Below, piece by piece: positions 1,134 through 20,019 of a stretch of DNA of 64,000 bases (positions within the stretch are counted from its first letter, which is position 1; each line of letters opens with the position of its first letter). Source of the DNA: Hoeflea sp. BAL378 (GTDB lineage Bacteria > Pseudomonadota > Alphaproteobacteria > Rhizobiales > Rhizobiaceae); assembly GCF_000759435.1 (NCBI RefSeq), contig NZ_JRJG01000038.1, positions 1-64,000 on the forward strand, in the 5' to 3' direction. The position numbers were made by a program, and so were the translations under genes. The notes beneath the pieces were generated by a model. That model was not told the DNA's origin, did not search any database, and saw only the letters and a program-made list of their open reading frames with translations.

Positions 1134-1197
1134 GGCCTGCGGAGGGCGGGAATCATGAAGTCCAAAGTCATGACGAGTTATGGAAACGGGAGATGAA

Positions 1198-4275: not shown

Positions 4276-5134
4276 GCCTGAGGCGAGCGCCGCGGCGCTC
4301 CCGCTCTACAGCATTCACGCGATCCGCTACGGGCATCTTGAACGGCGCTCCTCCGAGAATTTCCTGGGAGGCGACAGCCACGATGTCGCGATGCCTCTCG
4401 ATTATTATGTCTGGGTCATCAAGGGCGACGACGGGCGGGCCATCCTCGTCGATACCGGGTTTTCCAAGGCGACAGGTGAGAAACGAGGACGGCAGATCCT
4501 GAGGCCGGTGGCCGAAGGATTGCGCGCGCTTGACGTCGATCCGGGCACGGTCGAGCATGTCATCATCACCCACATGCATTACGATCACGCGGGAAACCTG
4601 CCGCTCTTTCCCAAGGCGACGTTCCATATCCAGGAACGCGAGATGTCGTTCTGCACCGGGCGTTGCATGTGCCAGGATATTTTCCGCCATCACTTCGAGG
4701 CCGAGGATGTCGTGGAAATGGTACGGCGGCTTTTCATCGGACGGGTCGCGTTCTGCAACGGCACGCAGGAGATTGCTCCGGGCCTGTCCGTGCACCTGGT
4801 CGGCGGCCATACCGACGGCCATCAGGTTGTGCGGGTTCATACCGCGCGGGGCTGGGTGGTGCTGGCCGCGGATGCATTGCATTTCTACGCCAATCTGGAG
4901 CGGAGAATACCCTTTCCGGCCTTCTACAACCTGGCCGACATGCTGGCTGCATTTGACGAGTTGCTGCGCCTGGCGGAAACGCCGGACCACATCGTGCCCG
5001 GCCATGACCCCGAGGTGATGGCGCGCTATCCTGCGTCATCGCCCGGCATGGAAGGGTGGATCGCCCGGCTCGACGCCGATCCGGTTTGCGCAGACGTCAA
5101 GGCTCTTCCCGCAGGCTATAGCGGCATAGGCTAA
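4262..5134 (+). CDS. MBL-fold metallo-hydrolase (N-acyl homoserine lactonase-like family)
   Basis: Metallo-beta-lactamase-fold hydrolase, 290 residues, no signal peptide. The dinuclear metal site is complete: H104-M-H106-Y-D108-H109, H183 in GGHTDGH, an Asp in LAADALHFY and a His in VPGHDPEV. The layout resembles quorum-quenching lactonases (AHL lactonase/AttM family), whose members also open gamma-lactones. It overlaps dctM by 14 nt and so belongs to the TRAP operon, which points to hydrolysis of the imported compound (for example a lactone or ester) rather than quorum quenching. That role is inference. Confidence 0.82.
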   Translation: MDTSKPEASAAALPLYSIHAIRYGHLERRSSENFLGGDSHDVAMPLDYYVWVIKGDDGRAILVDTGFSKATGEKRGRQILRPVAEGLRALDVDPGTVEHVIITHMHYDHAGNLPLFPKATFHIQEREMSFCTGRCMCQDIFRHHFEAEDVVEMVRRLFIGRVAFCNGTQEIAPGLSVHLVGGHTDGHQVVRVHTARGWVVLAADALHFYANLERRIPFPAFYNLADMLAAFDELLRLAETPDHIVPGHDPEVMARYPASSPGMEGWIARLDADPVCADVKALPAGYSGIG

Positions 5135-5221: not shown

Positions 5222-5324
5222 ATCTCGGTCTGCCCGGCCCGGGGTCAGCCGTAGCCTGCAACCGATGCAGTCAACCGTCCGGACCAACTGAATGGCCGCG
5301 GCGCCACGATAGGGAGTGATGAGA

Positions 5325-6827
5325 ATGTCGGAAGCGAAAAGCGATCTGTCGCCGGAATGGACGCAAGACGGTCCCGAGGCAGGGTCGGCGGGCTTTGTCG
5401 GCAAGATGCTCATCGGCGGCGAGTTGGTGGAGGCTGAAAGCGGGGCCTGGCTCGAAAGCTTCAACCCGGCCGATGAGAGCTATCTCGGCAAGGTGCCGAT
5501 GGCCGGGGAAGCCGATGTGGCGCGCGCGGTTGCGGCGGCACAGGCCGCGCAGCCGGGCTGGGCGGCGCTGTCGATGGAGCAGCGGGGGAACTATCTTCTT
5601 GCGTTCTGTGACAGGCTGGAAGAGCGGTCCGACGAAATCCTGCGCATCGAGGTGGCCGATACGGGCAACACGATCAAGCCGATGCGCAACGACCTGATCA
5701 ACGGGCTGCAGCGGCTGAAATACTTCATCGGCCTCGCCTATGAGTTGAAGGGCCACAGCATTCCCTCGACGGCGGGCAATCTCCATTTCTCGATCCGTGA
5801 GCCCTATGGCGTCTGCGGGCGGATCCTCGCCTTCAATCACCCGATCTATTTTGCCCTGTGCGGCATTGGCGCGCCTTTGATGGCGGGAAACGCGATCATC
5901 CTGAAGCCGTCCGAGCAGAGCCCGCTTTCGGCGGCGATCTTTGGCGAGGTCGCCAGCCAGGTGCTGCCGAAGGGGATCCTCAGCGTCGTCACCGGCGGAC
6001 GCGAGACCGGCGAGGCGATCGTGCGGCATCCGAAAATCAAGCGGCTGTCCTTTGTCGGTTCGGCACCGACCGGTATGGCAATCCAGCGCGCCGCGGCCGA
6101 GGTGGCGGTCAAGCATGTGACGCTCGAACTTGGCGGCAAGAACCCGTTCATCGTTTTCGCCGATGCGCCGATCGAGAAGGCCGCCAAGGCGGCGGTCAGC
6201 GGCATGAATTTCGGCTGGCAGGGCCAGTCCTGCGGATCGACAAGCCGGTTGCTGGTGCAGGATTCGATCTATGACCAGGTGCTCGACCTTGTCGTGCGCG
6301 AAGTGAAAGCCATCCGCGTGGGCGATCCGTTTGACGAAGCAAGTCAGATGGGACCGATCAACTCGCCGCCGCACTACCGCAAGGTGCTGCACTACATCAA
6401 TGCGGGCAAGGAGGACGGGGCACGCCTGGCCGCCGGGGGCAAGCGGCCCGCAGGCGAGGGGTTTGCCAAGGGGCTGTGGATCGAGCCGACCGTGTTTGCC
6501 GATGTGAAACCCGGCGCCCGGATCGCGCAGGAGGAGATCTTCGGCCCGGTCCTGTCGGTCATGCGCTGGTCCGATACCGAGGAAATGATCGAGATCGCCA
6601 ATGGCGTCGATCTCGGACTGACGGCCGCGGTCTGGACCAACGACATCAGCGCCGCCATGCGCACGGCGCAGCGGCTGGAGGCCGGCTATATCTGGATCAA
6701 CGGGGTCGGCTCGCATGTGCGGGCGATGCCCTATGGCGGATACAAGAACAGTGGCATCGGCCGCGAACGCGGGCTCGAGGAACTGATCTCCTACACCGAG
6801 GAAAAAGCGATCCACATCATGCTCTGA
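5325..6827 (+). CDS. NAD(P)-dependent aldehyde dehydrogenase
   Basis: Soluble enzyme of the aldehyde dehydrogenase superfamily, 500 residues (normal length), oxidising an aldehyde to the acid with NAD(P)+. The catalytic pair is present: E268 in LELGGKNPF and C303 in GQSCGSTSR. Coenzyme-site sequence FNHPIYFAL and the C-terminal YGGYKNSGIGRERGLEELISYTEEK are typical, with similarity to betaine-aldehyde-type members. GTG 5316 and ATG 5319 are also in frame, but AGGGAG at 5311-5316 favours ATG 5325. It follows the TRAP/MBL operon after 190 nt and precedes the epimerase gene, so it probably acts on the same imported compound. Confidence 0.88.
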   Translation: MSEAKSDLSPEWTQDGPEAGSAGFVGKMLIGGELVEAESGAWLESFNPADESYLGKVPMAGEADVARAVAAAQAAQPGWAALSMEQRGNYLLAFCDRLEERSDEILRIEVADTGNTIKPMRNDLINGLQRLKYFIGLAYELKGHSIPSTAGNLHFSIREPYGVCGRILAFNHPIYFALCGIGAPLMAGNAIILKPSEQSPLSAAIFGEVASQVLPKGILSVVTGGRETGEAIVRHPKIKRLSFVGSAPTGMAIQRAAAEVAVKHVTLELGGKNPFIVFADAPIEKAAKAAVSGMNFGWQGQSCGSTSRLLVQDSIYDQVLDLVVREVKAIRVGDPFDEASQMGPINSPPHYRKVLHYINAGKEDGARLAAGGKRPAGEGFAKGLWIEPTVFADVKPGARIAQEEIFGPVLSVMRWSDTEEMIEIANGVDLGLTAAVWTNDISAAMRTAQRLEAGYIWINGVGSHVRAMPYGGYKNSGIGRERGLEELISYTEEKAIHIML

Positions 6828-6948
6828 CCCGCGGCAACGCAGATCTTGAGCAGGGCGTGGAGAAGCTGAGGGACAGCGCCCAGCCACGCCGGTGACGGAC
6901 AAGGTCGTCCGGGGGACCGGGCGCATAACGGCAGAAGAGGAACTGGAC

Positions 6949-7944
6949 TTGGACAATGGAGTAAAAATCAGTGGCAACAAGTTTGTCATTACCGGCGGCG
7001 CCAGCCAGGTCGGATCGGAGATCACGCGCCACCTGCTGAAAGCGGGCGCGAGTGAAGTCGTCCTGTTCGACAATTTTGCCCTGGGCACGCCGGAGGCGGT
7101 GGCGGACCTGCTCGACGACAAGCGGGTGGTGCTGACACGGGGAGACGTGTTGCGGACCAATGAGCTGTTCGACGCGCTCGACGAGGCGGCCGGCATCTAT
7201 GCCCTTGCGGGGTTCCTGACCAAGCCGCTGACGCTGAACCCGGCCCTCGGCCTTGCGGTGAACGTCCAGGGAATGCTCAACGTCTTCGAGGCCTGCCGCT
7301 ATCGCGGCCGCCCGAAGGTGCTGTTCTCCTCCTCGGTCGCCGTCTATGGCGAAACCAAATCGGCGCTGACGGACGAAGCCGATGCGTGGAACTGGTATGG
7401 GCAGCAGCCCGGCGCGGCGCTCTACGGCGCCTCGAAAATCATGGGCGAGAACCTCGGCCGGCTTTATCACGACCGCTACAAGGTTCCGTCGATCTCGCTG
7501 CGCTATGCCTCGGTCTATGGCGAGCGGCAGCACCGGCGGGCGGTCAACTCCGCCTATATCATCGATACGATCGACAGCATCCGCAGGGGCGAACGCCCGA
7601 CCATTCCCGATGACGGCAGCGAGGTGCATGATTACATCCATATCCATGACATCGCCACCGCGAACCTGATGGCGATGGAAGCCGATGTCTCGCGCGAGTC
7701 GATGACGGTGGCAACCGGCACATCGACGTCGTTGAACACGCTGGTCGACACGATCCTCAAGGTGATGGGTTCGGACCTGAAACCCGAACACCGCAAGGCC
7801 GACAATGCGATTCGCGCGACCGTCTCCAGCACGCTGAAATTCACGCCCGAGAAGATCAAGAAAACGCTTGGCTGGAAGCCGGAGATCAGCCTGGACGAAG
7901 GCATCCGCCGCATTATCGCATGGCTGGATGCGGAGAAGGCCTGA
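6949..7944 (+). CDS. NAD(P)-dependent epimerase/dehydratase family protein (extended SDR)
   Basis: Extended short-chain dehydrogenase of the sugar-nucleotide epimerase type. It shows the nucleotide-binding VITGGASQVGSEI, the SSSVAVYGE strand and the catalytic YGASK (YxxxK). The region YASVYGERQHRRAVNS is typical of UDP-sugar epimerases, but related enzymes oxidise free sugars or sugar acids. No ATG start is visible. TTG 6949, preceded by GAGG at 6937-6940 (8-nt spacing), gives MDNGVKISGNKFVITGG. A GTG at 6892 would add 19 residues but lacks a good ribosome site. It is the last gene before a strong terminator. Substrate unknown; a role with the upstream aldehyde dehydrogenase is inferred. Confidence 0.85.
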   Translation: MDNGVKISGNKFVITGGASQVGSEITRHLLKAGASEVVLFDNFALGTPEAVADLLDDKRVVLTRGDVLRTNELFDALDEAAGIYALAGFLTKPLTLNPALGLAVNVQGMLNVFEACRYRGRPKVLFSSSVAVYGETKSALTDEADAWNWYGQQPGAALYGASKIMGENLGRLYHDRYKVPSISLRYASVYGERQHRRAVNSAYIIDTIDSIRRGERPTIPDDGSEVHDYIHIHDIATANLMAMEADVSRESMTVATGTSTSLNTLVDTILKVMGSDLKPEHRKADNAIRATVSSTLKFTPEKIKKTLGWKPEISLDEGIRRIIAWLDAEKA

Positions 7945-8586: not shown

Positions 8587-10080
8587 ATGAATGGTCAGAA
8601 CGAATACGATGTCATCGTCGTGGGCGGCGGAAACGCCGCGCTCTGTGCGGCATTGTCTGCTGTCGAAAATGGTGCGCGCGTGCTTGTGCTCGAACGGGCG
8701 CCGGAGGAAGAGCGGGGCGGCAACACGGCCTATACGGAAGGGCTGATGCGGTTCGCCTACAACGGCACCGACGACATCGTCGCCCTGTCTCCGGACCTGT
8801 CGGAAGAGGAGAAGAACAGCGATTTCGGAGTCTACACGGAAGATACGTTCTTCGACGACATGGCGCGGGTGACCGAGATGCGCACGGATCCGGATCTGTG
8901 CGAGATCCTGGTGCGCCAAAGCAATTCGGTCATGCATTGGCTGCGCGAGCAGGGCCTGAAGTTCCTGCCGCAATTCGGGCGCCAGTCCTTCAAGGTCGAT
9001 GGGCGGTACAAGTTCTGGGGTGGCGCCACCCTGGCCGTCGTGGGCGGCGGGCGCGGGATGGTCGACTTCCTGTTTTCCGCGGCGGAACGCAGGAACGTCG
9101 ACATCGTCTATGACGCCTGGGTGCGGGACCTGATCCACGATGATGACGGCGTGCATGGCGTCATCGCCCGCGTCAAAGGCAAGACGACGCATTTCCATGG
9201 AAAAACCGTTGTTCTTGCCTGTGGCGGGTTCGAGGCAAATGCGGAATGGCGCACCCGGTATCTCGGACCGGGCTGGGACCTCGCCAAGGTTCGCGGCACC
9301 AAGTACAACACCGGCGACGGTCTCGACATGGCGCTACGGATCGGCGCGCAGCCGCGCGGTAACTGGTCCGGCTGCCACGCCGTCGGCTGGGAACGCTATG
9401 CGGATGAGTATGGCAGCTTCGAGGTGATCGACGACTACGAGCGCGACAGCTATCCCTTCTCGATCATGGTGAACGCCGACGGCAAGCGCTTTCTCGATGA
9501 AGGCGCCGACATCCGCAACTACACTTATGCGAAGTACGGCCACATCATCATGAAGCAGCCGCAGCAGTTCGCCTGGCAGTTGTTCGATTCCTCGGTGACG
9601 CATCTCTTGCGGCCCGAATACCGGTCGCGCCGGGTGACCAAGGTCATCGCCAATACGATTGAGGAACTGGCCGAGAAGATCGATGACGTGAACACCGAGC
9701 AGCTCATCAGGACGCTCAAGGACTTCAATGCGTCGGTCAAGAAGGACGTGCCGTTCGATCCGACACTGAAGGACGGACGCTGCACCGTGGGGCTGGACCA
9801 GCCGAAATCAAACTGGGCCGTCGGCCTGGAGAATCCCCCGTTCGAAGCGTTCTCCGTCACGTGCGGCATCACCTTCACATTCGGCGGGCTGGGGATCACC
9901 AATGACGGCCAGGTCCGCGACGTGAACATGAAGCCGATCAAGGGGCTTTATGCTGCGGGCGAAATGGTTGGAGGCCTGTTTTACTTCAATTATCCGGGCT
10001 CGACCGGTTTGACCAGCGGCTCTGTTTTCGGGCGCCTGGCCGGACGCAGTGCGGCGCAGGCGGCGCTGGGACCGGCATGA
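8587..10080 (+). CDS. tcuA: FAD-dependent tricarballylate dehydrogenase-like flavoprotein (TcuA-like)
   Basis: Flavoprotein of the fumarate-reductase/succinate-dehydrogenase family, 497 residues. The N-terminal FAD motif YDVIVVGGGNAALCAAL is clear, and C-terminal GGLGITNDGQV, LYAAGEMVGG and YPGSTGLTSGSVFGRLAG are hallmarks of this family. Overall it looks most like TcuA, which oxidises tricarballylate to cis-aconitate; other 3-oxosteroid or fumarate-reductase-like members are the alternative. The downstream MmgE/PrpD and aconitase genes would use cis-aconitate or a relative, which supports the call. No TcuB electron-transfer partner or TcuC permease is adjacent, so electrons must leave another way. 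Ribosome site AGGGAGGAAGG precedes the ATG. Confidence 0.75.
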   Translation: MNGQNEYDVIVVGGGNAALCAALSAVENGARVLVLERAPEEERGGNTAYTEGLMRFAYNGTDDIVALSPDLSEEEKNSDFGVYTEDTFFDDMARVTEMRTDPDLCEILVRQSNSVMHWLREQGLKFLPQFGRQSFKVDGRYKFWGGATLAVVGGGRGMVDFLFSAAERRNVDIVYDAWVRDLIHDDDGVHGVIARVKGKTTHFHGKTVVLACGGFEANAEWRTRYLGPGWDLAKVRGTKYNTGDGLDMALRIGAQPRGNWSGCHAVGWERYADEYGSFEVIDDYERDSYPFSIMVNADGKRFLDEGADIRNYTYAKYGHIIMKQPQQFAWQLFDSSVTHLLRPEYRSRRVTKVIANTIEELAEKIDDVNTEQLIRTLKDFNASVKKDVPFDPTLKDGRCTVGLDQPKSNWAVGLENPPFEAFSVTCGITFTFGGLGITNDGQVRDVNMKPIKGLYAAGEMVGGLFYFNYPGSTGLTSGSVFGRLAGRSAAQAALGPA

Positions 10081-10088
10081 GCGAAGTT

Positions 10089-10114
10089 GGGCGCGCGGCG
10101 GAAGCCGCCGCCCT
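10089..10114 (+). terminator. Stem-loop after the TcuA-like gene
   Basis: Inverted repeat around CGGCGG-AAG-CCGCCG (10096-10110), about 16 nt after the stop, followed by CCCTTT. A plausible weak terminator separating this gene from the LysR gene on the same strand. Confidence 0.4.
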
Positions 10115-10262
10115 TTACCCCAAAGGTTTTGGGGGTTAGGGTTTCCGACTGGACGCTTGGACAAAGGCGCGTCCGGGGCTGACGGGCACCAGTTAGAAGC
10201 GGCCCGGAACAAGGATTTCTGGCGCGGGTGGATGCGCTGGCGGGTCGGGGAATGGAGTAACC

Positions 10263-11183
10263 GTGCAGCTTCGTCAAATACGTTATGTGCTGGAGGTCAA
10301 TCGCTGCGGCAACAACATTTCAGCCGCGGCGGAAGCGCTGCACACGTCGCAGCCGGCGATCAGCAAGCAGATCCAGTTGCTCGAATACGAACTGGGCTTC
10401 AATATCTTCGAACGCACCCGGAACCGCGTCGTGGGCCTGACCGATCCCGGGCAGGAGGTGCTGAAGATCGCACAGCGGATCTTCAGCGACATCGAGAATC
10501 TGCGTTCCATCCGCGACGATTACGACAACCTGCAGCAGGGGCGCCTCGTCATCGCCACGACGCATACCCATGCGCGCTATATCCTGCCAAAGGTGATCAA
10601 CGCCTTCCTGAAACGTTATCCCCGGGTGCAGATCGGCCTGTTGCAAGGCAACCCGACCGAAATCTGCGAGATGATCGAAAGCGGCGTCGCCGATCTTGCG
10701 ATCGGCACGGAGGCGATGCGGTCGTTTCCAAGCCTGGCGGTGCTGCCGTGCTTCGAGATCAAGCGCAGCGTGATCGCGCCGAAGGACCATCCGATCCTGA
10801 CGGTGGAGCCGTTGACTCTGGAGGAGATCGCCAAATATCCGGTGATCGCCCATGATGCGTTCAGGAGCGGCCAGTGGAAGATCCTCGATGCCTTCGTACG
10901 GCGCGGGATCGAGCTGAACATCCCCTTTACCGCCGTCGACGCCGATATCGGCAAGACCTATGTGGAGCTTGGCCTTGGCATCGCCATTCTGGCGACCGTT
11001 GCGGTAGACCCGCTGCATGACGGCGATCTGCGCGCGCGCGATGCGAGCCACCTGTTCGAATCGAGCACCACCGCGATCCGGTTCAGGAAAAGCGCCTATC
11101 TTCGCCGCTACATCTATGACTTCATCCAGACCATGGCGCCGAACATGACCAAGAAGGTGGTTCAGTCCCACCAGCGGAGTTGA
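10263..11183 (+). CDS. LysR-family regulator, CysB-like
   Basis: Transcription regulator of 306 residues. N-terminal winged helix-turn-helix: LRQIRYVLEVNRCGNNISAA then EALHTSQPAISKQIQLLEYELG. The linker and effector domain start, LQQGRLVIATTHTHARYILP, closely matches the CysB/Cbl subgroup. In CysB that Thr-rich loop binds acetylserine or sulfate-like anions; here an anionic carboxylate is a reasonable guess. Start is GTG 10263 with GGAG 6-9 nt upstream. It sits between the TcuA-like and MmgE/PrpD genes on the same strand, so it probably controls this tricarboxylate block. The location parallels TcuR, the LysR activator of tcu genes, but subgroup identity differs. Confidence 0.9.
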   Translation: MQLRQIRYVLEVNRCGNNISAAAEALHTSQPAISKQIQLLEYELGFNIFERTRNRVVGLTDPGQEVLKIAQRIFSDIENLRSIRDDYDNLQQGRLVIATTHTHARYILPKVINAFLKRYPRVQIGLLQGNPTEICEMIESGVADLAIGTEAMRSFPSLAVLPCFEIKRSVIAPKDHPILTVEPLTLEEIAKYPVIAHDAFRSGQWKILDAFVRRGIELNIPFTAVDADIGKTYVELGLGIAILATVAVDPLHDGDLRARDASHLFESSTTAIRFRKSAYLRRYIYDFIQTMAPNMTKKVVQSHQRS

Positions 11184-11204
11184 ACGATCTGTCCATGGCG
11201 GCCG

Positions 11205-11232
11205 GGGCGGCTGGTCAAATTCTTGGCCGCCC
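11205..11232 (+). terminator. Candidate stem-loop after the CysB-like gene
   Basis: Inverted repeat GGGCGGC / GCCGCCC with a 14-nt loop, starting 21 nt after the stop codon. No T-run. It is a modest terminator candidate. Confidence 0.35.
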
Positions 11233-11459
11233 GCAAGCGCGCCAGGCCCGCCGACTAGACACGCAACCTATAGCGCTATGATGTATTGTTGGATTGTCTG
11301 CGGACGGTCCACTCCCTACTCTCTGACCCAGAACCGCGCGACCGAACCCTGGCAAGCTGCAGGGTCCGCGTCGCTCTCATCGCTTTCGTGCAAGACGCTT
11401 GGCGGCTGCTGCGGCGGTTTGGACGATGCGTTTGAATGCTGCGCTGGAGAGGGTGCCGA

Positions 11460-12833
11460 ATGGAAGAGACAGAGGGTTTCCAACTCACGCGGTTTCTGCA
11501 TGAACTCGCTCCGCGAGACATTCCGGACGATGCGCGGGTCATGGCGAAAGCCTGCATCCTGGACGCATTCGGCTGCGCCTTTTTCGGATCGACGCAACCC
11601 TGGTCGCAGATCCTTGCAGCCGAGCTTGCAAGCGATGGAGGCGATGGGGCGGCGACGGTGATCGGGCGCGCGCTGCGCCTTCCGGTGACGGCGGCGGCAA
11701 TCTGCAACGGCACCGCGATCCACGGATTCGAACTCGACGACCTGATCGCGGAATCGATCATTCATCCTGCCGCGGCAGTGGTGCCGGCGGCGCTGGCCGC
11801 GGCCGAGGCGAACGGCGCGCGCGGCGATATCCTCGTCAAGGCCGTCGTGGCGGGCTACGAGACCATGCACCGGATCGGCCTCGGGATGGGCACCGAACCC
11901 GCGGGGCGCGGGTTCCACACCACCAGCCTCACGGCGCCGACCGCTGCGGCGATGGCCGCCTCGATCGTCATGGATCTGCCGCTTGACCAGTTGCGTTCGG
12001 CGGTCGGACTGTCGGCCTCGGCGGCGGGCGGCATCAAGAATTTCGCGGCGGGAAACGGCGGCGGCATGGTGAAGCGTCTGCATCTGGGGCGCGCGGCAGG
12101 CGAGGGGGTGCGGTCGAGCCGCCTTGCCGCGGCGGGCTTCATGGGGCCGCCCGGCGCCATCGACGGCAAATTCGGCCTTCTGCCGGTCTATGGCGGCAGC
12201 GGCGCGAACCCCGCGCGTCTGGTCGCGGATCTCGGCAGCACCTGGGCCATAAACCAGGTGTGGTTCAAGGGCTACCCGATCTGCGGATGGATTCATTCCG
12301 TGATGCAGGTGCTGCTGGATCTGCGCGGCGACGGCCCGTTGGACCCCGAGGATGTTGAGCAGGTGATTGTCGGCGTCAGCAGCTATGCGGCGCGCAACAA
12401 CGGCGAGAAGGCTCCCACCGACACGATGGGCGCGCAATACAGCATCCCCTTCTGCTCCGCCGTGGCGCTTCTGGGAGATCCGCGCGATCCCGACAGCTTC
12501 CGGACCGAAGCGGTCGCGGATCCGCGCACGCGCGCGCTTGCACAGCGTGTCGATCTGGTTGTCGATCCCGATGTGGAGGCCGTCTATCCCGCGAAGTTCG
12601 GCGCGCGCGTTTCGCTGCGTCTCAGGAACGGCACGGAAAGGCAAGGCATGGTGATGGAATGCCACGGAACCCCGGCGGATCCGTGTTCGGCGGATGAATT
12701 GCGCGACAAGTTCCTGCTGCTGGCCTGCAAGCGGATCTCCGTGAGCCGCGCCGAGGAAATCGCCGACCTTGTCGAGAACCTGGAAAATCTCGAATCCGTC
12801 ACTGACCTGGCGCTGCTGCTTGCTGCGGACTGA
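11460..12833 (+). CDS. MmgE/PrpD family protein
   Basis: Cytosolic lyase/isomerase of the MmgE/PrpD family, 457 residues (usual length 440-480). Family members include 2-methylcitrate dehydratase (PrpD), cis-aconitate decarboxylase and iminodisuccinate epimerase. Typical stretches are CILDAFGCAFFG near residue 35, GTAIHGFELDDL near 90, SAAGGIKNF near 190 and KGYPICGWIHSVMQ near 275. The frame opens at 11436, but GGAGAGGG at 11446-11453 indicates ATG 11460. It lies 37 nt before the aconitase gene, so the pair is probably co-transcribed. Sequence alone does not separate dehydratase, decarboxylase and epimerase activities; a tricarboxylate substrate is inferred from neighbours. Confidence 0.87.
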   Translation: MEETEGFQLTRFLHELAPRDIPDDARVMAKACILDAFGCAFFGSTQPWSQILAAELASDGGDGAATVIGRALRLPVTAAAICNGTAIHGFELDDLIAESIIHPAAAVVPAALAAAEANGARGDILVKAVVAGYETMHRIGLGMGTEPAGRGFHTTSLTAPTAAAMAASIVMDLPLDQLRSAVGLSASAAGGIKNFAAGNGGGMVKRLHLGRAAGEGVRSSRLAAAGFMGPPGAIDGKFGLLPVYGGSGANPARLVADLGSTWAINQVWFKGYPICGWIHSVMQVLLDLRGDGPLDPEDVEQVIVGVSSYAARNNGEKAPTDTMGAQYSIPFCSAVALLGDPRDPDSFRTEAVADPRTRALAQRVDLVVDPDVEAVYPAKFGARVSLRLRNGTERQGMVMECHGTPADPCSADELRDKFLLLACKRISVSRAEEIADLVENLENLESVTDLALLLAAD

Positions 12834-12869
12834 CAGCGTCCGCCAAATTTGCATGTGAAGAGGAAGATC

Positions 12870-15614
12870 ATGACCAATCCGTTTGACACGATTGCGCGCC
12901 AGCCTATCGACCTTCCCGGCAAGGGGCGGCTGGATTTCTATTCGGTCCCTGCGCTCGAAGCCAATGGGGTAGGTGCGGTGTCCCGCCTGCCGGTGGTGTT
13001 GCGCGTGGTTCTGGAATCGGTGCTGCGCCATTGCGACGGACGGACCATAACCGCCGATCAGGTGCGTGCGCTGGCGAACTGGAAACCAAATGCCGTGCGC
13101 ACCGAAGAGGTGCCTTTTACCGTCGGGCGTCTCGCGCTCAACTGCGCCGCCGGCATCCCGCTGCTCGGCGATGTGACGGCAATCCGCGGCGCGATGAACC
13201 GGCTTGGGCTGCCGGTGGAAAACGTTCAGCCGGAAGTCCATGTCGACATGGCGCTCGACCACACGCTGACCGTGGACTATTACGGCAATGCCAGCGCGCT
13301 GTTGCGCAACATGGAACTCGATATCGAACGCAACTACGAGCGCTACCGGTTCGTCAAATGGGCGATGCAGGCCTATGACGGCATCCGGCTTTTTCCGCCC
13401 GGCGCCGGCATTCTGCACCAGTTGAACCTCGAATTCCTGGCGCCCGGGTTCCTGACGCGCGACGGCGTCGCCTTCCCGGACACGATGGTGGCGACCGATT
13501 CCCATACCTGCATGATCGCGGGTCTGGGCACGGTCGGCTGGGGCGTTGGCGGAATCGAGGCGCAGGCCGCGCTGCTGGGGCTGCCCAATTATTTCCTCAC
13601 GCCCGATGTCGTGGGCGTCCACGTCACCGGCGCGCTTCGCGATGGCGTGACGGCGACCGATCTTGTGCTGCATGTCACGGAAATGCTGCGCGAGGCCAAG
13701 GTGGTCGGCAAGTTCGTCGAATTCTTCGGGGAGGGCGTCGGACGCCTGTCATTGCCCGACCGGGCGACGATCTCGAACATGGCGCCGGAATATGGCGCGA
13801 CGATCGGCTATTTTCCGGTTGACGAGCAGACATGTCGCTATCTGCGCCAGACCGGCCGCGACGAGGCGACCGTGGCCGCCACCGAGAAGTTCTACCGCGC
13901 CCAGGGGTGTTTCGGCGCCGCCGAAGCGGGGTCGGTGGAGTACAGCCGTGTCGTCGACCTCGACCTGACCAGGGTCGAGCCTTGCGTGGCCGGGCCCAAG
14001 CGGCCGCAGGACCGTGTGCCGCTCGGCGCGCTCGCCAGGGAATTTACCGGTCTTCTGGAACGGCCCGCAGCGGAAGGCGGCTACGGACGGTCGAAGGCGC
14101 CGGCGGACGCGAAATCTCGGGACGCCCACACGGTGGCCGATGGCGATGTCGTCATTGCGGCGATCACATCCTGCACCAATACCTCGAACCCCTCGGTGAT
14201 GCTGGCGGCGGGACTTGTGGCGAAAAAGGCCGTCGAGCTTGGGCTGAAGATGCGGCCCTCGGTCAAGACGTCGCTGACGCCGGGGTCTCGCGTGGTCAGC
14301 AAGTATCTGGAAGCGACCGGCCTGCAGGATTATCTCGACGAACTGGGTTTCGCGGTGGTTGGCTATAGCTGCGCGACCTGCGTCGGCGCATCGGGGCCCA
14401 TAGACAGCGCGCTCGAAGAAGAGATCAACGAGAACGGGACGGTTGCCTGCGCGGTGCTGTCGGGCAACCGCAATTTCGAGGCGCGTATCCATCCGGCGGT
14501 TCGCGCCTCCTTCCTTGCAAGTCCGCCGCTGGTGGTCGCGTTTGCGCTGGCGGGCACCGTCAACATCGATCTCACCCACGAGCCCCTAGGCCATGCGGCA
14601 GGGACCGGCGAGCCTGTCTATCTGTCCGACATCTGGCCCACCCAGGAGGAGCTGGCGCAGGCCCTGGCCACTGCGGCGGATCCGGCTTTCTACCGGGACA
14701 TCTATGATTCCGACTTTGAATCCAGCAATCCCTATTGGGCCGAAATCCCCCAGGCAACCGGAAGCCTTTATCCCTGGGAGCCGGAGTCGGAGTACCTCAA
14801 GGAGCCGCCTTTCCTCGACGACGATCTGCGGGTCTCCACGCTGGCCGAGATCAGGGGCGCGCGCAGCCTGGTCATTCTGGGAGATTCGGTCACCACCGAT
14901 CATATCAGTCCGATCGGGACGATCGGGATAAGGACCCCGGCCGGCAAATACCTTGCCGCCCATGGGGTCGCGCCAGGCGCCTTCAACAATTATGGGGCGC
15001 GCCGCATGAACCACGAGGTGATGATCCGGGGGGCCTTCGCCAATGTCCGGCTGCGCAACCTGATGGTTCCGGGGATCGAAGGCGGCATGACGCTGCACCA
15101 GCCAGATCGCGAACAGATGACGGTGTTCGACGCCGCCATGCGCTACCGCGAGGAACAGGTGCCGCTGATCGTCATGGCGGGCGAGGAGTACGGCACCGGC
15201 AGCGCGCGCGACTGGGCGGCCAAGGGGACCCGGCTGCTGGGCGTCCGTGCGGTCATCGCCAGCAGTTTCGAGCGTATCCACCGCAGCAACCTCGTGGGCA
15301 TGGGAGTCCTGCCATGCCAATGGCCCGAGGGGGTCAATGCCCAGACGCTGGGCCTTACCGGCGCGGAGCGTTTCGACATTCTCGGCATTGACGACACCGC
15401 AGCTCCGGGCCAGCCGCTTCGTCTCGTCATTGCGCGGGACGACCGGGAGCCGGAAACAGTTCCGATCATGCTCCGGGTGGATACGCCGATCGAGTTTGAC
15501 TATCTGCGCGAAGGCGGACTCATTCCCTTCGTGCTGAAGAAATTGATCGACAAACCACGCCCGGCGCCGGCGCGCGAAAAAATCTCTGCTTTCGCGGGAA
15601 GCCAAAGGGGCTAG
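12870..15614 (+). CDS. acnA: Aconitate hydratase, AcnA/IRP1 type
   Basis: Full-length [4Fe-4S] aconitase of 914 residues, interconverting citrate, cis-aconitate and isocitrate or homologous compounds. The three cluster cysteines are visible at C435 (SCTNTSNPSVM), C501 and C504 (YSCATCVGASG), the same positions as in E. coli AcnA. The C-terminal swivel domain carries GEEYGTGSARDWAAKG and ASSFERIHRSNLVGMGVLP. ATG 12870 is preceded by AAGAGGA; an earlier in-frame ATG at 12849 is less likely. Its place in an accessory catabolic cluster, not beside other TCA genes, suggests a dedicated isozyme, possibly acting on an unusual substrate. Several active-site-region residues look standard, so ordinary aconitase activity is also possible. 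Confidence 0.93.
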   Translation: MTNPFDTIARQPIDLPGKGRLDFYSVPALEANGVGAVSRLPVVLRVVLESVLRHCDGRTITADQVRALANWKPNAVRTEEVPFTVGRLALNCAAGIPLLGDVTAIRGAMNRLGLPVENVQPEVHVDMALDHTLTVDYYGNASALLRNMELDIERNYERYRFVKWAMQAYDGIRLFPPGAGILHQLNLEFLAPGFLTRDGVAFPDTMVATDSHTCMIAGLGTVGWGVGGIEAQAALLGLPNYFLTPDVVGVHVTGALRDGVTATDLVLHVTEMLREAKVVGKFVEFFGEGVGRLSLPDRATISNMAPEYGATIGYFPVDEQTCRYLRQTGRDEATVAATEKFYRAQGCFGAAEAGSVEYSRVVDLDLTRVEPCVAGPKRPQDRVPLGALAREFTGLLERPAAEGGYGRSKAPADAKSRDAHTVADGDVVIAAITSCTNTSNPSVMLAAGLVAKKAVELGLKMRPSVKTSLTPGSRVVSKYLEATGLQDYLDELGFAVVGYSCATCVGASGPIDSALEEEINENGTVACAVLSGNRNFEARIHPAVRASFLASPPLVVAFALAGTVNIDLTHEPLGHAAGTGEPVYLSDIWPTQEELAQALATAADPAFYRDIYDSDFESSNPYWAEIPQATGSLYPWEPESEYLKEPPFLDDDLRVSTLAEIRGARSLVILGDSVTTDHISPIGTIGIRTPAGKYLAAHGVAPGAFNNYGARRMNHEVMIRGAFANVRLRNLMVPGIEGGMTLHQPDREQMTVFDAAMRYREEQVPLIVMAGEEYGTGSARDWAAKGTRLLGVRAVIASSFERIHRSNLVGMGVLPCQWPEGVNAQTLGLTGAERFDILGIDDTAAPGQPLRLVIARDDREPETVPIMLRVDTPIEFDYLREGGLIPFVLKKLIDKPRPAPAREKISAFAGSQRG

Positions 15615-15684
15615 CCCGAGCGCTTGCGCAGGCTCTCTGGCGTCACGGCATGGGGCCGAGCCGGCCTGGTAAGGCGCCGTCGCC

Positions 15685-16587
15685 TCAGCTCTGCAACTGG
15701 CGCGAAAAATCGCAGCTTTCGCGCGCCAGTTCGGCGACGCGCGCCGCGAAGGCGTTCGGGAGATCCTTGCGGTAGCTGACAACATAGGGAATGTCCGGCA
15801 ATTCGGGCTCCGTCGGTATGATCGCAAGCTTCCCCTCGGCCACCAGCGGTTCGAAACACAGCAACGGAAGGTAGGTCACGCCGAGACCGGCCACCGTCAT
15901 GCCCAGCAGCGCGATCAGGCTGTCGCTGGAGAATTGCCGCCGCACGACCGCGGCTTCCGACTGCAGCCAGTTGGCGACCCAGAGGCCGGTGCCGGACCGG
16001 TTCCCCTGCACCAGGATCGTGTGTTCGGTCAGTTCCTCGATCGAGACGCGGCGGGGGGCGCCGACCAGCTTCGGACTGCCCATCCAGACGTTCCTGACCC
16101 GCGCAAGATGCAGGGACGTGACATGCGGGCTGGCAAAGGCATCCGGCACGATGATGACGTCGAGCTGGCCCTCCGTCAGCCGGTCGTGAAGGTTGCGGCC
16201 GAGATCGACCTCGGTCTCGATCACGACATTGGGATGCGCCGCGCGCAGCGCGAAGATGAACCGGGGCAGCCAGGTCAAAGCGCTCAGTTCGGTGACGCCC
16301 AGCCGGAGCAGCCGGGCCGGAACGTCGTCCTGCCGGGCGATAGAAGCCGCGCGCTGGCGCAGAGCCAGCATTTCCTCGGCGAGCGCCAAGAGCTGCTCGC
16401 CCTTTTCGGTCATCACCGCATTGCGCTGGCTGCGATCGAACAGCGTGACCCCGGTATCGAGCTCCAGCTCCTGTATCCGCTTCGATATCGCCGACTGGGT
16501 GGTGTTCAGCCTGGCCGCGGCCCGTTCGAAGGTGCCGAGCTGGCCGATCCAGTAGAGGCCCTCAAGTTGTTTCAAGGTAATGATCAC
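15685..16587 (-). CDS. LysR-family regulator divergent from aconitase X
   Basis: Regulator of 300 residues. Helix-turn-helix region: ITLKQLEGLYWIGQLGTFERAAARL, then NTTQSAISKRIQELE; an effector-binding domain follows. The open frame continues 75 codons upstream, but the LysR domain begins at about GTG 16587 (coordinate high end), preceded closely by GGAGG. It is convergent with acnA and divergent from the aconitase X operon, the classical arrangement for a LysR regulator of its neighbour. A symmetric T-N11-A palindrome in the shared promoter region (16693-16713) is its likely binding site. Confidence 0.88.
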   Translation of the reverse strand: MIITLKQLEGLYWIGQLGTFERAAARLNTTQSAISKRIQELELDTGVTLFDRSQRNAVMTEKGEQLLALAEEMLALRQRAASIARQDDVPARLLRLGVTELSALTWLPRFIFALRAAHPNVVIETEVDLGRNLHDRLTEGQLDVIIVPDAFASPHVTSLHLARVRNVWMGSPKLVGAPRRVSIEELTEHTILVQGNRSGTGLWVANWLQSEAAVVRRQFSSDSLIALLGMTVAGLGVTYLPLLCFEPLVAEGKLAIIPTEPELPDIPYVVSYRKDLPNAFAARVAELARESCDFSRQLQS

Positions 16588-16692
16588 AGCCTCCGTCCCG
16601 GCTCGCGGCCGGAGTTGGGTAAGTTCGCAGCGGTAGGCGACTGCCGCCTCCCACAGCAGCATACACATTCCTTCAGCGAATGAAAATCGATG

Positions 16693-16713
16693 CAAATATA
16701 TCGTTTTTATTTG
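16693..16713. promoter_or_regulatory. Candidate LysR box in the AcnX/LysR divergent promoter
   Basis: Perfect inverted repeat CAAATA-N9-TATTTG whose centre (16703) is also the centre of a T-N11-A core (T16697, A16709), the LysR consensus. It lies in an AT-rich patch of the 242-bp divergent region, 117 nt before the aconitase X start codon and about 105 nt before the LysR start. Confidence 0.6.
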
Positions 16714-16829
16714 TGTATCGCGGACCCTATCACTGTCTGAGATCACCATCCGGCCGAGCGATTTCGGCCGAGGTTTCCGGGCGGCATGGCCTGTCCTGTC
16801 GTCGACAAGCAATTCAAGGAGTGCCGCCT

Positions 16830-18149
16830 ATGGTTCTGACCGAAGAAGAGCAGCGGATGCTCGACGGTGACAGTGGCACCGCCGTCAAGAAGGCCATGGA
16901 AATCCTGGTGGCCCTGGGCGAAAGCTTCGGGGCCGAACGGCTGGTGCGCACCAACAACGTCCATATGGCGGGCTCCTCCGTGCTGGTGGCCGAAGAGGCA
17001 GGGACGCGCTTTGTCGAGGATATCCGTGCGCAGGGTGGAAATTTCGTCACGCGGGTGACAACCAATCCGACGGCGATCGATCCCACGAAATGGAAAGAGA
17101 TCGGGATTCCCGAGTCGGATGAGGTGATGCAGAGGCGTCTGACGGCAGCCTATGCCGGGATGGGAGCGAATTCCTGCAATTCCTGCATTCCCTATCTCGT
17201 CGGCAACAATCCGCGCTTCGGCGAGCACATGGCGTGGGGCGAATCCTCGGCGGTGGTGTTTGCGAATTCCGTATGCGGGGCTCGGACGAACCGCGAAGGC
17301 GGGCCCAGCGGCCTTGCCTCGGCGCTGACCGGACGAACGCCGGAATATGGCTTCCACCTCAAGGAAAACCGGTATGGAAGCTTCCTGGTGAAGGTCGAGG
17401 CTCCGCTCAACGACATGACCGATTACGGCACGCTGGGGTGCTTTGCCGGCAAGATCGCCGGACAGGACACGCCGGTCTTTACCGGCATTCCCGACAATCC
17501 GACGATCGAGCAGTTGAAGGCGCTGAGCGCGGCGCTGGCCTCTTCCGGCTCGGTGAGCATGTTCCATGCCGTCGGCGTGACGCCCGAGGCGCCGACGGTC
17601 GAAGAGGCTTTCGGCGGCAAGGATCCGGAGAAGGTGATTGTTTTCGGCGAGGCGGAGAAGGCCGAGACCGAGGCCTTTCTCAACAAGGAGCCGACCGATC
17701 ACGTCGACTGGATCCTGGTGGGCTGCCCGAACGCCACGGTGCAGGAGATACGCGAGGTCGCCGATGCGCTCGTGGACAAGAAGGTGCATGCCGACGTCGC
17801 GCTTTGGGTCACCACCTCGGGCGCGATGTACGCGATGGCGGAACGCGTGGGCTATGTCGAGACCATCGAGAAGGCCGGCGGGACGGTGGTCCGGGAAACC
17901 TGCCCCTTCCTTGCGCGAAGCCGCGTGATCGCGCCCGCGAAGGGGTACAAGACCCTGACAACCAACTCGGCAAAGATGGCGTTCTACGCGCCGGGACAAT
18001 TCGGGCTGTCCACCCATTACGGAAACCTCGATCGGGTCATGAAGGCCGCGATCAACGGTGTGTGGAGCTTGAGATCATGGATGGCAGCAAACTCATTCTC
18101 AAGGGCCGCAAGATTGTCGCCGGCAAGGCCAGCGGCGAGGCCATCGTGA
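16830..18149 (+). CDS. Aconitase X catalytic (large) subunit
   Basis: AcnX large subunit (DUF521/aconitase X catalytic domain), 439 residues. Characterised relatives dehydrate cis-3-hydroxy-L-proline or mevalonate 5-phosphate, using an iron-sulfur or metal site. Family blocks are present: NSCNSCIPY with C116 and C119, AWGESSAVVFANSVCGARTNREGGPSG with C149, and the ETCPFLARSR block with C358. ATG 16830 has AAGGAG upstream. The conserved domain seems to end near residue 415; the last ~24 codons (rich in Ser, Arg and Ala) overlap the small-subunit gene in another frame, which is unusual. Context with RraA and AcnA suggests a tricarboxylate-like substrate instead of hydroxyproline; this is inference. 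Confidence 0.9.
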   Translation: MVLTEEEQRMLDGDSGTAVKKAMEILVALGESFGAERLVRTNNVHMAGSSVLVAEEAGTRFVEDIRAQGGNFVTRVTTNPTAIDPTKWKEIGIPESDEVMQRRLTAAYAGMGANSCNSCIPYLVGNNPRFGEHMAWGESSAVVFANSVCGARTNREGGPSGLASALTGRTPEYGFHLKENRYGSFLVKVEAPLNDMTDYGTLGCFAGKIAGQDTPVFTGIPDNPTIEQLKALSAALASSGSVSMFHAVGVTPEAPTVEEAFGGKDPEKVIVFGEAEKAETEAFLNKEPTDHVDWILVGCPNATVQEIREVADALVDKKVHADVALWVTTSGAMYAMAERVGYVETIEKAGGTVVRETCPFLARSRVIAPAKGYKTLTTNSAKMAFYAPGQFGLSTHYGNLDRVMKAAINGVWSLRSWMAANSFSRAARLSPARPAARPS

Positions 18150-18550
18150 CCAGGGAAGCGATCAGCTTCAATGGCGGCGTCGACAACATGACGGGGATCG
18201 TCACCGAGCCCGGGCACGAGCTGGAAGGCCAGAACATCGCCGGCAAGGTGCTGGTGTTCCGGACCGGCAAGGGGTCGACCGGCGGTTCCTACAAGATCTA
18301 CGACATGGTCTCGCGCGGGACCGCGCCAGTGGCCTTCGTGCAGGTGCAGTCCGAGGGAATCACCACGATCGGCGCCATCATCGGCAGTATCCCGGTCGTG
18401 GCGTCGCTGGACCAGGATCCGACCCAGGTCATCCGGACCGGTGATTTCGTTGAACTCGACGCAGAGGCGGGAACCGTGGTGGTGACGCGCCGCGCCGTCG
18501 ACAGTGTTTCCGGCGCTGACCTCACCCAGGGGGCAGAGCATGGCGGATAA
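18077..18550 (+). CDS. Aconitase X swivel (small) subunit
   Basis: AcnX small subunit (DUF126 swivel domain), 157 residues. It has the family sequence GKASGEAIV, SFNGGVDNMTGIV and GKVLVFRTGKGSTGGSYKIYDM, including the conserved serine S67 of the GSTGGS loop, followed by RGTAPVAFVQVQ. It completes the active site of the large subunit. ATG 18077 lies 9 nt after GGAG (18064-18067); GTG 18062 is an alternative start. It overlaps the large-subunit frame by 73 nt and the next gene by 11 nt, so the three genes form one tightly coupled unit. In some organisms both AcnX parts are one polypeptide; here they are separate. Confidence 0.88.
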   Translation: MDGSKLILKGRKIVAGKASGEAIVTREAISFNGGVDNMTGIVTEPGHELEGQNIAGKVLVFRTGKGSTGGSYKIYDMVSRGTAPVAFVQVQSEGITTIGAIIGSIPVVASLDQDPTQVIRTGDFVELDAEAGTVVVTRRAVDSVSGADLTQGAEHGG

Positions 18551-19187
18551 TGCAGGGCGCGTCCCGATGTCGGAGGCCGATCTGGTGCATGCGTTCCGGG
18601 GCCTGCCGACGGCTGTCATCAGCGACAACCTCGACCGGCTGCCGGGGCCGGTCGGATTGCGGGCCTTCCATTCCGGAACACCGCTGGTGGGGCGTGCGCT
18701 CACGGTGCGGACCCGGGTGGGCGACAATCTGGCGATCCACCAGGCGCTGGAGCTTGTAAAGCCCGGCGACGTGATCGTCGTTGACGGTGGCGGCGACGTC
18801 AGCCGTGCGCTGGTTGGCGAGATCATGAAGGCGATCGCCGAGAAAAAAGACGCTGCGGGCTTCGTCATTGATGGCGCCATTCGCGACAGCGCGGCTTTCG
18901 CCAGCTCGGATTTTCCCTGCTACGCGCGGGCTGCCATCCATCGCGGCCCCTACAAGAACGGTCCGGGCGAGGTCAACGTGCCGGTCTCGATCGGCGGCTG
19001 CGTCATCTCTCCCGGCGATATCATCGTGGGTGACGAGGACGGGATTGTGAATTTCGCACCGGCGAAAGCGGAAGACCTGCTGGCCGCGGTGAAGGCGTTT
19101 CTCGTCCGCGAAGAAGAGATCATGCGATCCATCGCGGATGGGACCTACCAGGGCGCCTACGGTGTCAAGGCAACATCCATTACATGA
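18540..19187 (+). CDS. RraA family protein (HMG/CHA aldolase-like)
   Basis: 215-residue member of the RraA/class II HMG-aldolase family. These metal-dependent enzymes cleave 4-hydroxy-4-methyl- or 4-carboxy-4-hydroxy-2-oxo acids to pyruvate plus an oxo acid, and often decarboxylate oxaloacetate; some members only inhibit RNase E. The catalytic signature is kept: GGGDVSRALVGEIM around residues 83-96 and DGAIRD with R115 and D116. The presence of these catalytic residues favours an aldolase over an RNase E inhibitor. ATG 18540 is inside the end of the AcnX small-subunit gene. Placed after a hydro-lyase, it is a good candidate for the chain-cleaving last step of the pathway. Confidence 0.85.
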   Translation: MADNAGRVPMSEADLVHAFRGLPTAVISDNLDRLPGPVGLRAFHSGTPLVGRALTVRTRVGDNLAIHQALELVKPGDVIVVDGGGDVSRALVGEIMKAIAEKKDAAGFVIDGAIRDSAAFASSDFPCYARAAIHRGPYKNGPGEVNVPVSIGGCVISPGDIIVGDEDGIVNFAPAKAEDLLAAVKAFLVREEEIMRSIADGTYQGAYGVKATSIT

Positions 19188-19197
19188 GGAGACCAGT

Positions 19198-19569
19198 GTG
19201 AGCCAGAAAAGTGAATTCCACAAACTCGACGATCCGAGCGACGGACTGTTTCGGGAACTTGGAACCGGCCTGACGACCCATATCTTTTCGGGCGAACACG
19301 CCATGCTTTCGGTGGTCGTGATCGAACCGGGCTGTGTCGGCACGATGCATCATCATCCGGAAGAGCAATGGGGCGTCCTGCTGGAAGGCAGTGCGATCCG
19401 CTACCAAGGCGACGAGGAGATCCCGGTGAGCAAGGGTGATTTCTGGCGCACGCCGGGCAATGTTCCGCACACGATGCGGGCGGGTCCCGATGGCGCGCGC
19501 GTGCTCGACATCTTCAGCCCGCCGCGCCCCGAATACCGCAAGCCCGGCAAGGGTTTTGCCGCCGGCTGA
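19198..19569 (+). CDS. Cupin domain protein
   Basis: Small beta-barrel protein of 123 residues with a single cupin domain. Metal-ligand pattern GTMHHHPEEQWGVLLEG (three histidines and a glutamate) and the second motif FWRTPGNVPHTM are intact, so it probably binds a divalent metal. Start is GTG 19198 with GAGGAGA 7-13 nt upstream. It is the last gene of the AcnX-RraA operon, 10 nt after rraA. Such cupins can be isomerases, decarboxylases or ligand sensors; the function here is not known. Confidence 0.82.
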   Translation: MSQKSEFHKLDDPSDGLFRELGTGLTTHIFSGEHAMLSVVVIEPGCVGTMHHHPEEQWGVLLEGSAIRYQGDEEIPVSKGDFWRTPGNVPHTMRAGPDGARVLDIFSPPRPEYRKPGKGFAAG

Positions 19570-19938: not shown

Positions 19939-19952
19939 TGCAATCGATTGCA
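19939..19952. promoter_or_regulatory. LacI-family operator O1
   Basis: Perfect palindrome TGCAATCGATTGCA with a central CG, typical of LacI/GalR operators. It lies 68 nt before the binding-protein start codon. The LacI-type repressor encoded at 24556-25584 in the same operon is the obvious candidate protein. Confidence 0.7.
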
Positions 19953-19959
19953 ATTGCGC

Positions 19960-19975: not shown

Positions 19976-20019
19976 AGCGTGGAACTAATCGCTTGGGCAC
20001 ATTTTATTGGGAGATCAAA

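Follow-up and report, generated by a model that had tools for sequence, protein, structure and literature searches.

The 64,000-nucleotide (64 kb) stretch of Hoeflea sp. BAL378 analysed here (contig NZ_JRJG01000038.1, hereafter the window) carries a gene island in which a TcuA-type dehydrogenase, an MmgE/PrpD-family enzyme, an AcnA, a two-subunit aconitase X (AcnX, with subunits AcnX-L and AcnX-S), an RraA-fold protein, a cupin and two LysR regulators lie together. We read this island as a putative accessory catabolic unit for a branched carboxylic acid of the substituted-succinate type, in which both of its cassettes would serve a single pathway, and we put the probability of this reading at a little under one half (about 0.45). 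It builds on features seen directly: gene content, order and conservation, the cassette structure, the active-site differences of AcnX and AcnA, and the association of AcnX with RraA.

Profile searches placed each of these genes at 8587-19569, as a sequence-only reading of this DNA had stated. Judging from gene order, the unit is larger than that reading supposed: its genes stand, and its start moves to near 1180, because G712, a related genome, keeps the window's order and relative strand (DctP-DctQ-DctM-MBL-ALDH-SDR-TcuA-CysB-PrpD-AcnA). The upstream genes for DctP, DctQ, DctM, a metallo-beta-lactamase-fold (MBL) protein, an aldehyde dehydrogenase (ALDH) and a short-chain dehydrogenase/reductase (SDR), at 1180-7944, would thus belong to it. 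LysR-AcnX-RraA-cupin (15685-19569) is a second cassette, which occurs without the remaining island genes in Bradyrhizobium. Elsewhere in the source genome (5.48 Mb) lie a second AcnA (contig C170), a second AcnX (contig C15) and two more RraA-fold genes, so that the AcnA, AcnX and RraA of the window are extra copies.

The link between AcnX and RraA was examined in the neighbourhoods of AcnX genes in other genomes (tblastn, limit 1e-8). Of the 21 window-type AcnX loci, 18 have an RraA gene at a distance of no more than 8 kb, against 0 of 31 other AcnX loci. The three exceptions comprise one locus with an RraA past 8 kb (L014), one where the contig ends (L028) and one with none within 8 kb (L008). 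TctC accompanies AcnX within 8 kb in 19/21 window-type loci, a LysR gene within 3 kb in 16/21, and, within 12 kb, a split thiamine pyrophosphate (TPP) decarboxylase-like pair in 8/21 and an ALDH in 8/21; the corresponding counts for the 31 others are 0, 0, 0 and 3. The 21 loci, namely the 22 GTDB loci at ≥73% identity minus L023 and L024 (where contigs cut the gene) plus plasmid L101, are partly non-independent (L010 and L101 come from the same species, L017 and L018 are near-identical). The controls, some with short flanks (L030, L033), came mostly from the window's own order and other phyla, and taxon-matched checks were therefore added: RraA was near in 0/4 further AcnX loci of other type taken from three Betaproteobacteria and one Pseudomonas (0/35 others in total). 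Fourteen carrier genomes hold 4-20 RraA-fold matches each, a density at which chance alone would give 0.37 of their 14 AcnX genes an RraA within 8 kb; 13/14 have one. Since both chance density and taxon-matched controls were checked, the association of RraA with AcnX is solid; TctC and LysR are weaker as links. The five-gene cassette is found entire in Bradyrhizobium L022 (LysR2 64%, AcnX-L 85% and AcnX-S 79% identical; RraA and cupin in Table 1).

The active site of this AcnX differs from those of both known AcnX functions, the hydroxyproline (C3LHyp) and the mevalonate-5-phosphate type. In columns numbered by TkAcnX, the window protein and 20/20 complete orthologues carry A47, G48, S49, S50, V53, N79, C110, E129, S130, S131, C283, C342, K361 and Y365 (the partial orthologue L023 departs at the second-last of these). 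Ala replaces Asp203 and Val replaces Asn53 in the window protein as well as in all 20 orthologues, and the former change is also seen in L023. The small subunit retains its catalytic Ser and Thr, whereas at Leu27 and Val64 the window and 21/21 orthologues have Asn and Gly, respectively. The Trp35 column is Asn. According to a 2021 structural paper (PMC8184944), Asn53 contacts the phosphate and Asp203 contacts C3LHyp, other residues being assigned to the cluster (cysteines) and to the carboxylate and C3-hydroxyl. Because the three cluster cysteines (110, 283, 342), Glu129, Ser130, Lys361, Tyr365 and the small-subunit Ser-Thr are kept, the window AcnX should bind a carboxylate with a beta-hydroxyl, and should thus still handle a beta-hydroxy acid, presumably in a more polar pocket.

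With the C3LHyp dehydratase type, the window AcnX shares the fold, the active-site glutamate and the lysine/tyrosine, but the Asp203 and Trp35 columns are changed as described, there is no Cys at the place of Cys510, and Cys stands in place of Ser449. With the mevalonate-5-phosphate dehydratase AcnX IIb (7CNR), it shares the two subunits, the three cluster cysteines and the carboxylate/C3-OH contacts, but Asn53, Leu27 and Val64 are replaced and its neighbours include RraA. Types IIc-IIf, according to PMC8184944, lack the landmark residues of either known function and await characterisation; by its residues the window AcnX is like them in lacking both sets. The window AcnX falls below the cut-off of the fused-protein AcnX model (293/700 bits), as does the two-subunit AcnX on C15 (350), which shows the C3LHyp residue pattern including Asp203.

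A scan of GTDB contigs, which detects only those sharing exact peptide patterns with the query, returned 31 loci, 22 of them with AcnX-L at 73-85% identity and assigned by title to Betaproteobacteria (20), Bradyrhizobium (one) and Paenibacillus (one). In genome-sample searches, in which no genome contributed more than 6 or 4 scored candidates for AcnX and PrpD relatives, the best AcnX-L match among 248 other genomes of the window's own order reached 43%, and in a phylum sample of 398 genomes only G485, besides the source genome, attained E 1e-90, at 42%. The AcnX gene of the window is rare and patchy, and was probably transferred. The locus of Paenibacillus xerothermodurans (L016 8184-13755) has the order TctC-RraA-AcnX-L-AcnX-S-RraA-PrpD, its AcnX-L being 80% identical to that of the window, a likely transfer between phyla.

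Other kinds of AcnX were met in these searches. One class in the window's order (L039-L047, L055, L061; 11 loci) has Glu129 changed to Asp, Ser130 to Thr and Tyr365 to Ile where aligned, with Gly at the catalytic Ser column in the 10 small subunits found. A further class, with Asn at 53 and Asn79 replaced by Leu, is represented by L102 (8987-13688), L119 and L117; its neighbours are, in L102, a dihydroxy-acid-dehydratase-like gene together with an FAD oxidoreductase and a TRAP transporter and, in L119, IlvD-like and TRAP genes. An IlvD-like gene also lies near AcnX in Burkholderia L185, and on a Lachnospiraceae contig (L034 1600-4942) two different AcnX pairs stand in tandem, of which the second has diverged strongly.

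The other cassette is likewise conserved. In a family sample of 346 genomes, including the source, PrpD relatives at E 1e-100 were found in three others, at four loci. Three loci with PrpD at 58-60% identity (G622, G712, G930) and a Shinella plasmid (57%) carry TcuA at 71-81% and AcnA at 67-70%; TcuA, AcnA, a CysB-like LysR (57-65%) and at least one RraA each lie near PrpD in 4/4. Of the more distant PrpD genes (28-37%, 20 loci), 1 has TcuA nearby, 2 have AcnA, 3 CysB and none RraA. AcnA, CysB and RraA are all missing around the PrpD genes at 49% (L099, a Cupriavidus plasmid) and 42% (L116, the fourth of the family-sample loci), the TcuA-like match of L099 being 27%. Beyond the order shared with the window, G712 has on the opposite strand one RraA between DctM and MBL and, in the SDR-TcuA gap, an SDH_alpha-like gene (PF03313, below cut-off) and three RraA genes. 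Parts of the island also occur in G622, G930 and Shinella; the Shinella and G622 loci add TPP subunits, another ALDH, and PcaC-like and 3-hydroxyisobutyrate-dehydrogenase-like (HIBDH-like) genes. Among the relatives' extra families, only ALDH and RraA matched within the window. The neighbourhood, whose lack of conservation the sequence-only reading had named as refuting its proposal, is thus conserved, though for each cassette separately, AcnX standing with TcuA and AcnA in the window only. Beside its island, G712 has a second cluster (L162 11499-18451) of a LysR gene, TcuA (61%), an ALDH and two PrpD-like genes.

The island AcnA exceeds the TIGR01341 cut-off (1161 vs 945 bits), has the three cluster cysteines and fails the AcnD 2-methylisocitrate dehydratase model TIGR02333 (739.5 bits, cut-off 1419.85). 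It does not possess the full aconitase active-site set, since the columns matching Gln72 and Ser643 of mAcn, whose numbering we assume and which we take to be substrate-site residues, are altered: Asn and Ala, respectively, stand there in 5/5 island AcnAs (window, L098, L113, L114, L115), a count that omits the truncated L155, in which the Gln72 column is empty and that of Ser643 has Ser, and a second Shinella AcnA, with Pro in the former column and Ser in the latter. Gln and Ser are retained in the alignment by the C170 AcnA and IRP1. In the island AcnAs nothing is changed at the cysteines, at the Ser642 column or at those arginine columns that were examined, the latter presumably aligning with the carboxylate-binding arginines of aconitase. 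We read the two altered columns as a probable shift in specificity. The AcnA on C170 outscores that of the window (1378.6 vs 1161 bits) and is presumably the housekeeping enzyme, which rules out the window AcnA as the sole aconitase of the genome. AcnA and AcnX, described as unrelated by the sequence-only reading, are instead distant members of one superfamily. The second Shinella AcnA (L098 5669-8353, on the plasmid) lies beside amidohydrolase, isochorismatase and isocitrate-lyase/PEP-mutase genes.

TcuA exceeds the cut-off of NCBIfam NF006130 (574.5 vs 369 bits), and the CysB-like LysR falls below that of NF009327 (388.3 vs 402 bits). The MmgE/PrpD protein passes the gathering scores of both Pfam domains (185.4 and 109.5 bits, cut-offs 32.1), fails the 2-methylcitrate dehydratase PrpD models (TIGR02330, 18.8/458 bits; NF042438, 47.5/950 bits), and has as nearest solved chains proteins named B. 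subtilis IRG1, cis-aconitate decarboxylase and IDS epimerase. More distant TcuAs (57-58%; L104 11168-13491, L105) have a phosphosulfolactate-synthase-like gene and SsuA-type transporters as direct or close neighbours, a hint that this branch may work on sulfonated substrates.

The window RraA belongs to the PRK06201 subfamily (293.6 bits, cut-off 231) and keeps an Arg-Asp pair where the P. putida aldolase (3noj) has Arg123-Asp124. According to PMC5065237, the P. putida enzyme cleaves 4-hydroxy-4-methyl-2-oxoglutarate (HMG) and 4-carboxy-4-hydroxy-2-oxoadipate (CHA) and decarboxylates oxaloacetate. An RraA of the E. coli type (RNase E regulator) was rejected, NF006875 and TIGR02998 being below cut-off and the Arg-Asp pair being kept. 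The CHA/HMG aldolase model NF006731 (LigK, GalC) is passed by the RraA relatives of Shinella (182 bits) and G622 (184.7), and a further RraA-fold gene of the source genome, on contig C204, is 63% identical to the Shinella protein of CHA-aldolase type. RraA types A and B of the G712 and G930 islands have the AcnX-locus RraAs as nearest relatives (59-62% and 50-56%, 45 rows compared). The RraA tree carries a long-branch warning and gives no support (83/69) to grouping the window RraA with the Shinella/G622/G712 type. Type B is rare (4/247 family genomes at E 1e-45). Two of these genomes, G811 and G662 (L179, L180), have three RraA genes in a row, one of type B (48-49%), one A-like (37-41%) and one other. 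In L179 of G811, the locus scanned, this other RraA is a full CHA aldolase (NF006731 326.9 bits, cut-off 179), and the triad neighbours a LigB-family ring dioxygenase, two FAD hydroxylases and two Amidohydro_2 proteins.

From these data we infer the individual reactions, the substrate and the union of both cassettes in one pathway as follows. The TRAP transporter (DctPQM) would import the acid, and the SDR, the MBL-fold lactonase and ALDH would convert alcohol, lactone or aldehyde precursors into it. The MmgE/PrpD enzyme might fix the configuration of the substituted succinate (R-succinate) or eliminate a leaving group, TcuA would desaturate R-succinate to R-maleate, and the specialised AcnA and the AcnX heterodimer would add or remove water. 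Acting as a hydratase, AcnX would yield the substrate of RraA, a role filled by unrelated hydratases in aromatic meta-cleavage pathways, and RraA would then cleave the tertiary 4-hydroxy-2-oxo acid. Our guess that AcnX makes the RraA substrate comes from a likeness of CHA to mevalonate phosphate, in which AcnX recognises a carboxylate, a CH2 and a tertiary hydroxyl, all three present in CHA; an oxalomesaconate-like substrate is likewise a guess. Going further, one may speculate, at rather long odds, that this class of AcnX is the hydratase of 4-oxalomesaconate-like acids, working with RraA-fold aldolases, and that the TcuA-AcnA route here starts from saturated tricarboxylates, not aromatic rings, to arrive at an intermediate of that kind. 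If so, the aconitase superfamily would gain a new reaction, and the known hydratases would have an unrelated enzyme taking their place.

Several known systems resemble parts of this scheme. The window TcuA, an FAD dehydrogenase above its family cut-off, recalls tricarballylate catabolism, for which we take Salmonella TcuA as the reference enzyme; the island adds the altered AcnA, MmgE/PrpD, the TRAP transporter, the lactonase-like protein, SDR, ALDH and RraA. With the lower pathway of protocatechuate 4,5-cleavage and gallate degradation, the island shares a hydro-lyase-type gene adjoining an RraA-fold relative of the CHA/HMG aldolase. The hydratases of that pathway are of the LigJ and GalB types, whereas that of the island would be AcnX; moreover, scanning of the island genes found none for ring cleavage, and the window RraA scores too low for a CHA aldolase. 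The itaconate/methylsuccinate cluster, according to PMC12290011, has an MmgE/PrpD methylsuccinate isomerase, thus an enzyme of this family serving a substituted succinate, and a CoA-dependent route; the window differs in its TcuA-type dehydrogenase, and no CoA-ester gene was found among the island genes scanned. A pathway joining all these genes is not described in the open-access literature searched, most subscription papers lying outside it, in agreement with the earlier statement that the combination was not a known one.

A number of observations weigh against a single pathway. TcuA and AcnA are each near 0/21 of the other window-type AcnX genes, AcnX is present in 0/4 of the other TcuA-PrpD-AcnA islands, and the joint locus occurs only in the window. 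The TPP pair and the PcaC-like and HIBDH-like genes of the relatives have no match in the 64 kb. The window RraA fails NF006731 (117.9 vs 179 bits) and is not of types A, B or C. The 45-row RraA comparison is biased, most rows having been taken from AcnX loci, and type B has relatives of about equal closeness (49-50%) in G811 and G662, where they stand apart from AcnX. Among the added AcnX controls, TctC and a LysR2-like gene each appear in 1/4, and the Asn/Gly pair of AcnX-S recurs in L026 and L030, where no RraA was seen nearby (L030 being short). At 1e-10, NCBIfam has no matching family for either Amidohydro_2 protein of L179, which leaves the meta-cleavage analogy one of fold and place only. 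Finally, no upstream gene names the substrate. Of the route first proposed, oxidation of a tricarboxylate, movement of its hydroxyl group and cleavage of the chain, what stands is the accessory, conserved neighbourhood, in which hydro-lyase families accompany a dehydrogenase of the TcuA type and a protein of the RraA fold; the joining of AcnX to TcuA and AcnA recurs in none of the other loci compared.

The same singularity of the joint locus speaks for two independent adjoining units, a TRAP-MBL-ALDH-SDR-TcuA-CysB-PrpD-AcnA island alongside which an unrelated LysR-AcnX-RraA-cupin cassette would have landed. Each unit has its own regulator, the cassette boundaries are visible, and Bradyrhizobium L022 has LysR-AcnX-RraA-cupin with no TcuA, PrpD or AcnA nearby. 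We nevertheless consider this arrangement rather unlikely, because the G712 and G930 islands hold RraA types close to those of AcnX loci, a TPP pair and ALDH lie beside both kinds of unit (Shinella and G622; several AcnX loci), and RraA is found near TcuA-PrpD-AcnA in 4/4 relatives.

Plain use of tricarballylate or aconitate, with TcuA producing cis-aconitate, AcnA passing it to the TCA (tricarboxylic acid) cycle and the remaining genes being accessory, would fit the passing of their own family models by both enzymes. It appears improbable in view of the second, higher-scoring AcnA, the two active-site changes of the island AcnAs, and the absence of TcuB- and TcuC-like families among the window genes scanned (the scan not taking in all genes); RraA, MBL, SDR and ALDH would also be superfluous.

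A sulfonated, sulfosuccinate-like dicarboxylate, with the split TPP enzyme of the relatives acting on sulfopyruvate, is more improbable still. The CysB-like regulator adjoining TcuA, here and in 4/4 relatives, points towards it, as do the distant TcuAs with their phosphosulfolactate-synthase-like gene and SsuA-type ABC transporters (in one case with a sulfate exporter), the match of the TPP pairs to sulfopyruvate decarboxylase subunits (below cut-off) and a TauD-family gene in L114. However, ComA-like and SsuA-like queries were unmatched in the window, L113-L115 and L161-L165 (a sulfate exporter was not searched for), the Shinella annotation has neither kind of gene, and the AcnA arginines, whose carboxylate-binding role is assumed as above, are retained. 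Last, one of the two known AcnX functions, suggested by membership of the same family and by TkAcnX, of the mevalonate-5-phosphate type, being the best solved match, is hardly credible: the lost Asp203 and other landmarks speak against the hydroxyproline function that would have made this an ordinary hydroxyproline dehydratase, the replaced Asn53, Leu27 and Val64 speak against the mevalonate one, and the genome holds a separate AcnX with the C3LHyp pattern (L118).

Returning to the reading of a single pathway, its truth would make a route for branched tricarboxylic acids recognisable in genomes. An AcnX devoid of known-function landmarks gains a strong partner, RraA, and a short list of candidate substrates, and the island offers a natural experiment in aconitase specificity, with an AcnA bearing two conserved active-site changes and a second AcnA in the same cell.

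Table 1. Genes of the island and of its AcnX cassette, in window coordinates.
Feature	Position	Strand	Evidence
DctP, TRAP transporter binding protein	1180..2277	+	Pfam PF03480; 61% identity, same order in G712
DctQ, TRAP small permease	2438..2953	+	PF04290; 50% in G712
DctM, TRAP large permease	2719..4275	+	PF06808; 60% in G712
Metallo-beta-lactamase-fold hydrolase, lactonase-like	4262..5134	+	PF00753; 63% in G712
Aldehyde dehydrogenase (ALDH)	5316..6827	+	PF00171; 74% in G712, G930
Extended SDR (NAD-dependent epimerase/dehydratase family)	6892..7944	+	PF01370; relatives 70-76%
TcuA, FAD-dependent tricarballylate-type dehydrogenase	8587..10080	+	NF006130 574.5 bits; 71-81% in four relatives
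CysB-family LysR regulator	10263..11183	+	NF009327 388.3 bits; 57-65% in four relatives
MmgE/PrpD-family enzyme, other than PrpD	11436..12833	+	PF03972/PF19305
Island AcnA	12849..15614, ATG of MTNPF at 12870	+	TIGR01341 1161 bits
LysR2, divergent regulator of AcnX cassette	15685..16587 (open frame to 16812)	-	PF00126/PF03466; ribosome site
AcnX large subunit (AcnX-L)	16830..18149	+	PF04412
AcnX small (swivel) subunit (AcnX-S)	18077..18550	+	PF01989
RraA/HMG-aldolase-fold protein	18540..19187	+	PF03737; 80% in Bradyrhizobium L022
Single-domain cupin	19198..19569	+	PF07883; 82% in Bradyrhizobium L022

The GC content by codon position is coding-like in 16/16 genes tested. The starts given for AcnX-L (16830), AcnX-S (18077) and LysR2 (16587) are corrected ones and the most likely; the open frame of DctM overlaps DctQ, and its real start is probably further downstream. 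AcnX-S and RraA overlap by 11 bases, RraA and the cupin are 10 apart, and PrpD and AcnA 15; given this tight spacing, LysR2/AcnX-LS-RraA-cupin looks like one operon with a divergent regulator. NCBIfam lactonase matches of the MBL-fold protein are weak and far below their cut-offs. Relatives of the SDR, possibly a hydroxy-acid dehydrogenase, lie beside TcuA in G622 (where the contig end cuts the gene) and beside RraA genes in G712 and G930.

AcnX-L extends 26 codons (18069-18149) beyond the stop of 20/20 examined orthologues (codon 414), and this tail overlaps AcnX-S by 73 bases. Downstream of the island, a complete-looking sugar-type operon occupies 19717-28899 (binding protein, ATPase, two permeases, LacI, Gfo/Idh/MocA oxidoreductase, SIS, glucokinase); its ABC transporter was set aside as the uptake system of the island, because the operon runs on into the LacI, Gfo/Idh/MocA, SIS and glucokinase genes.

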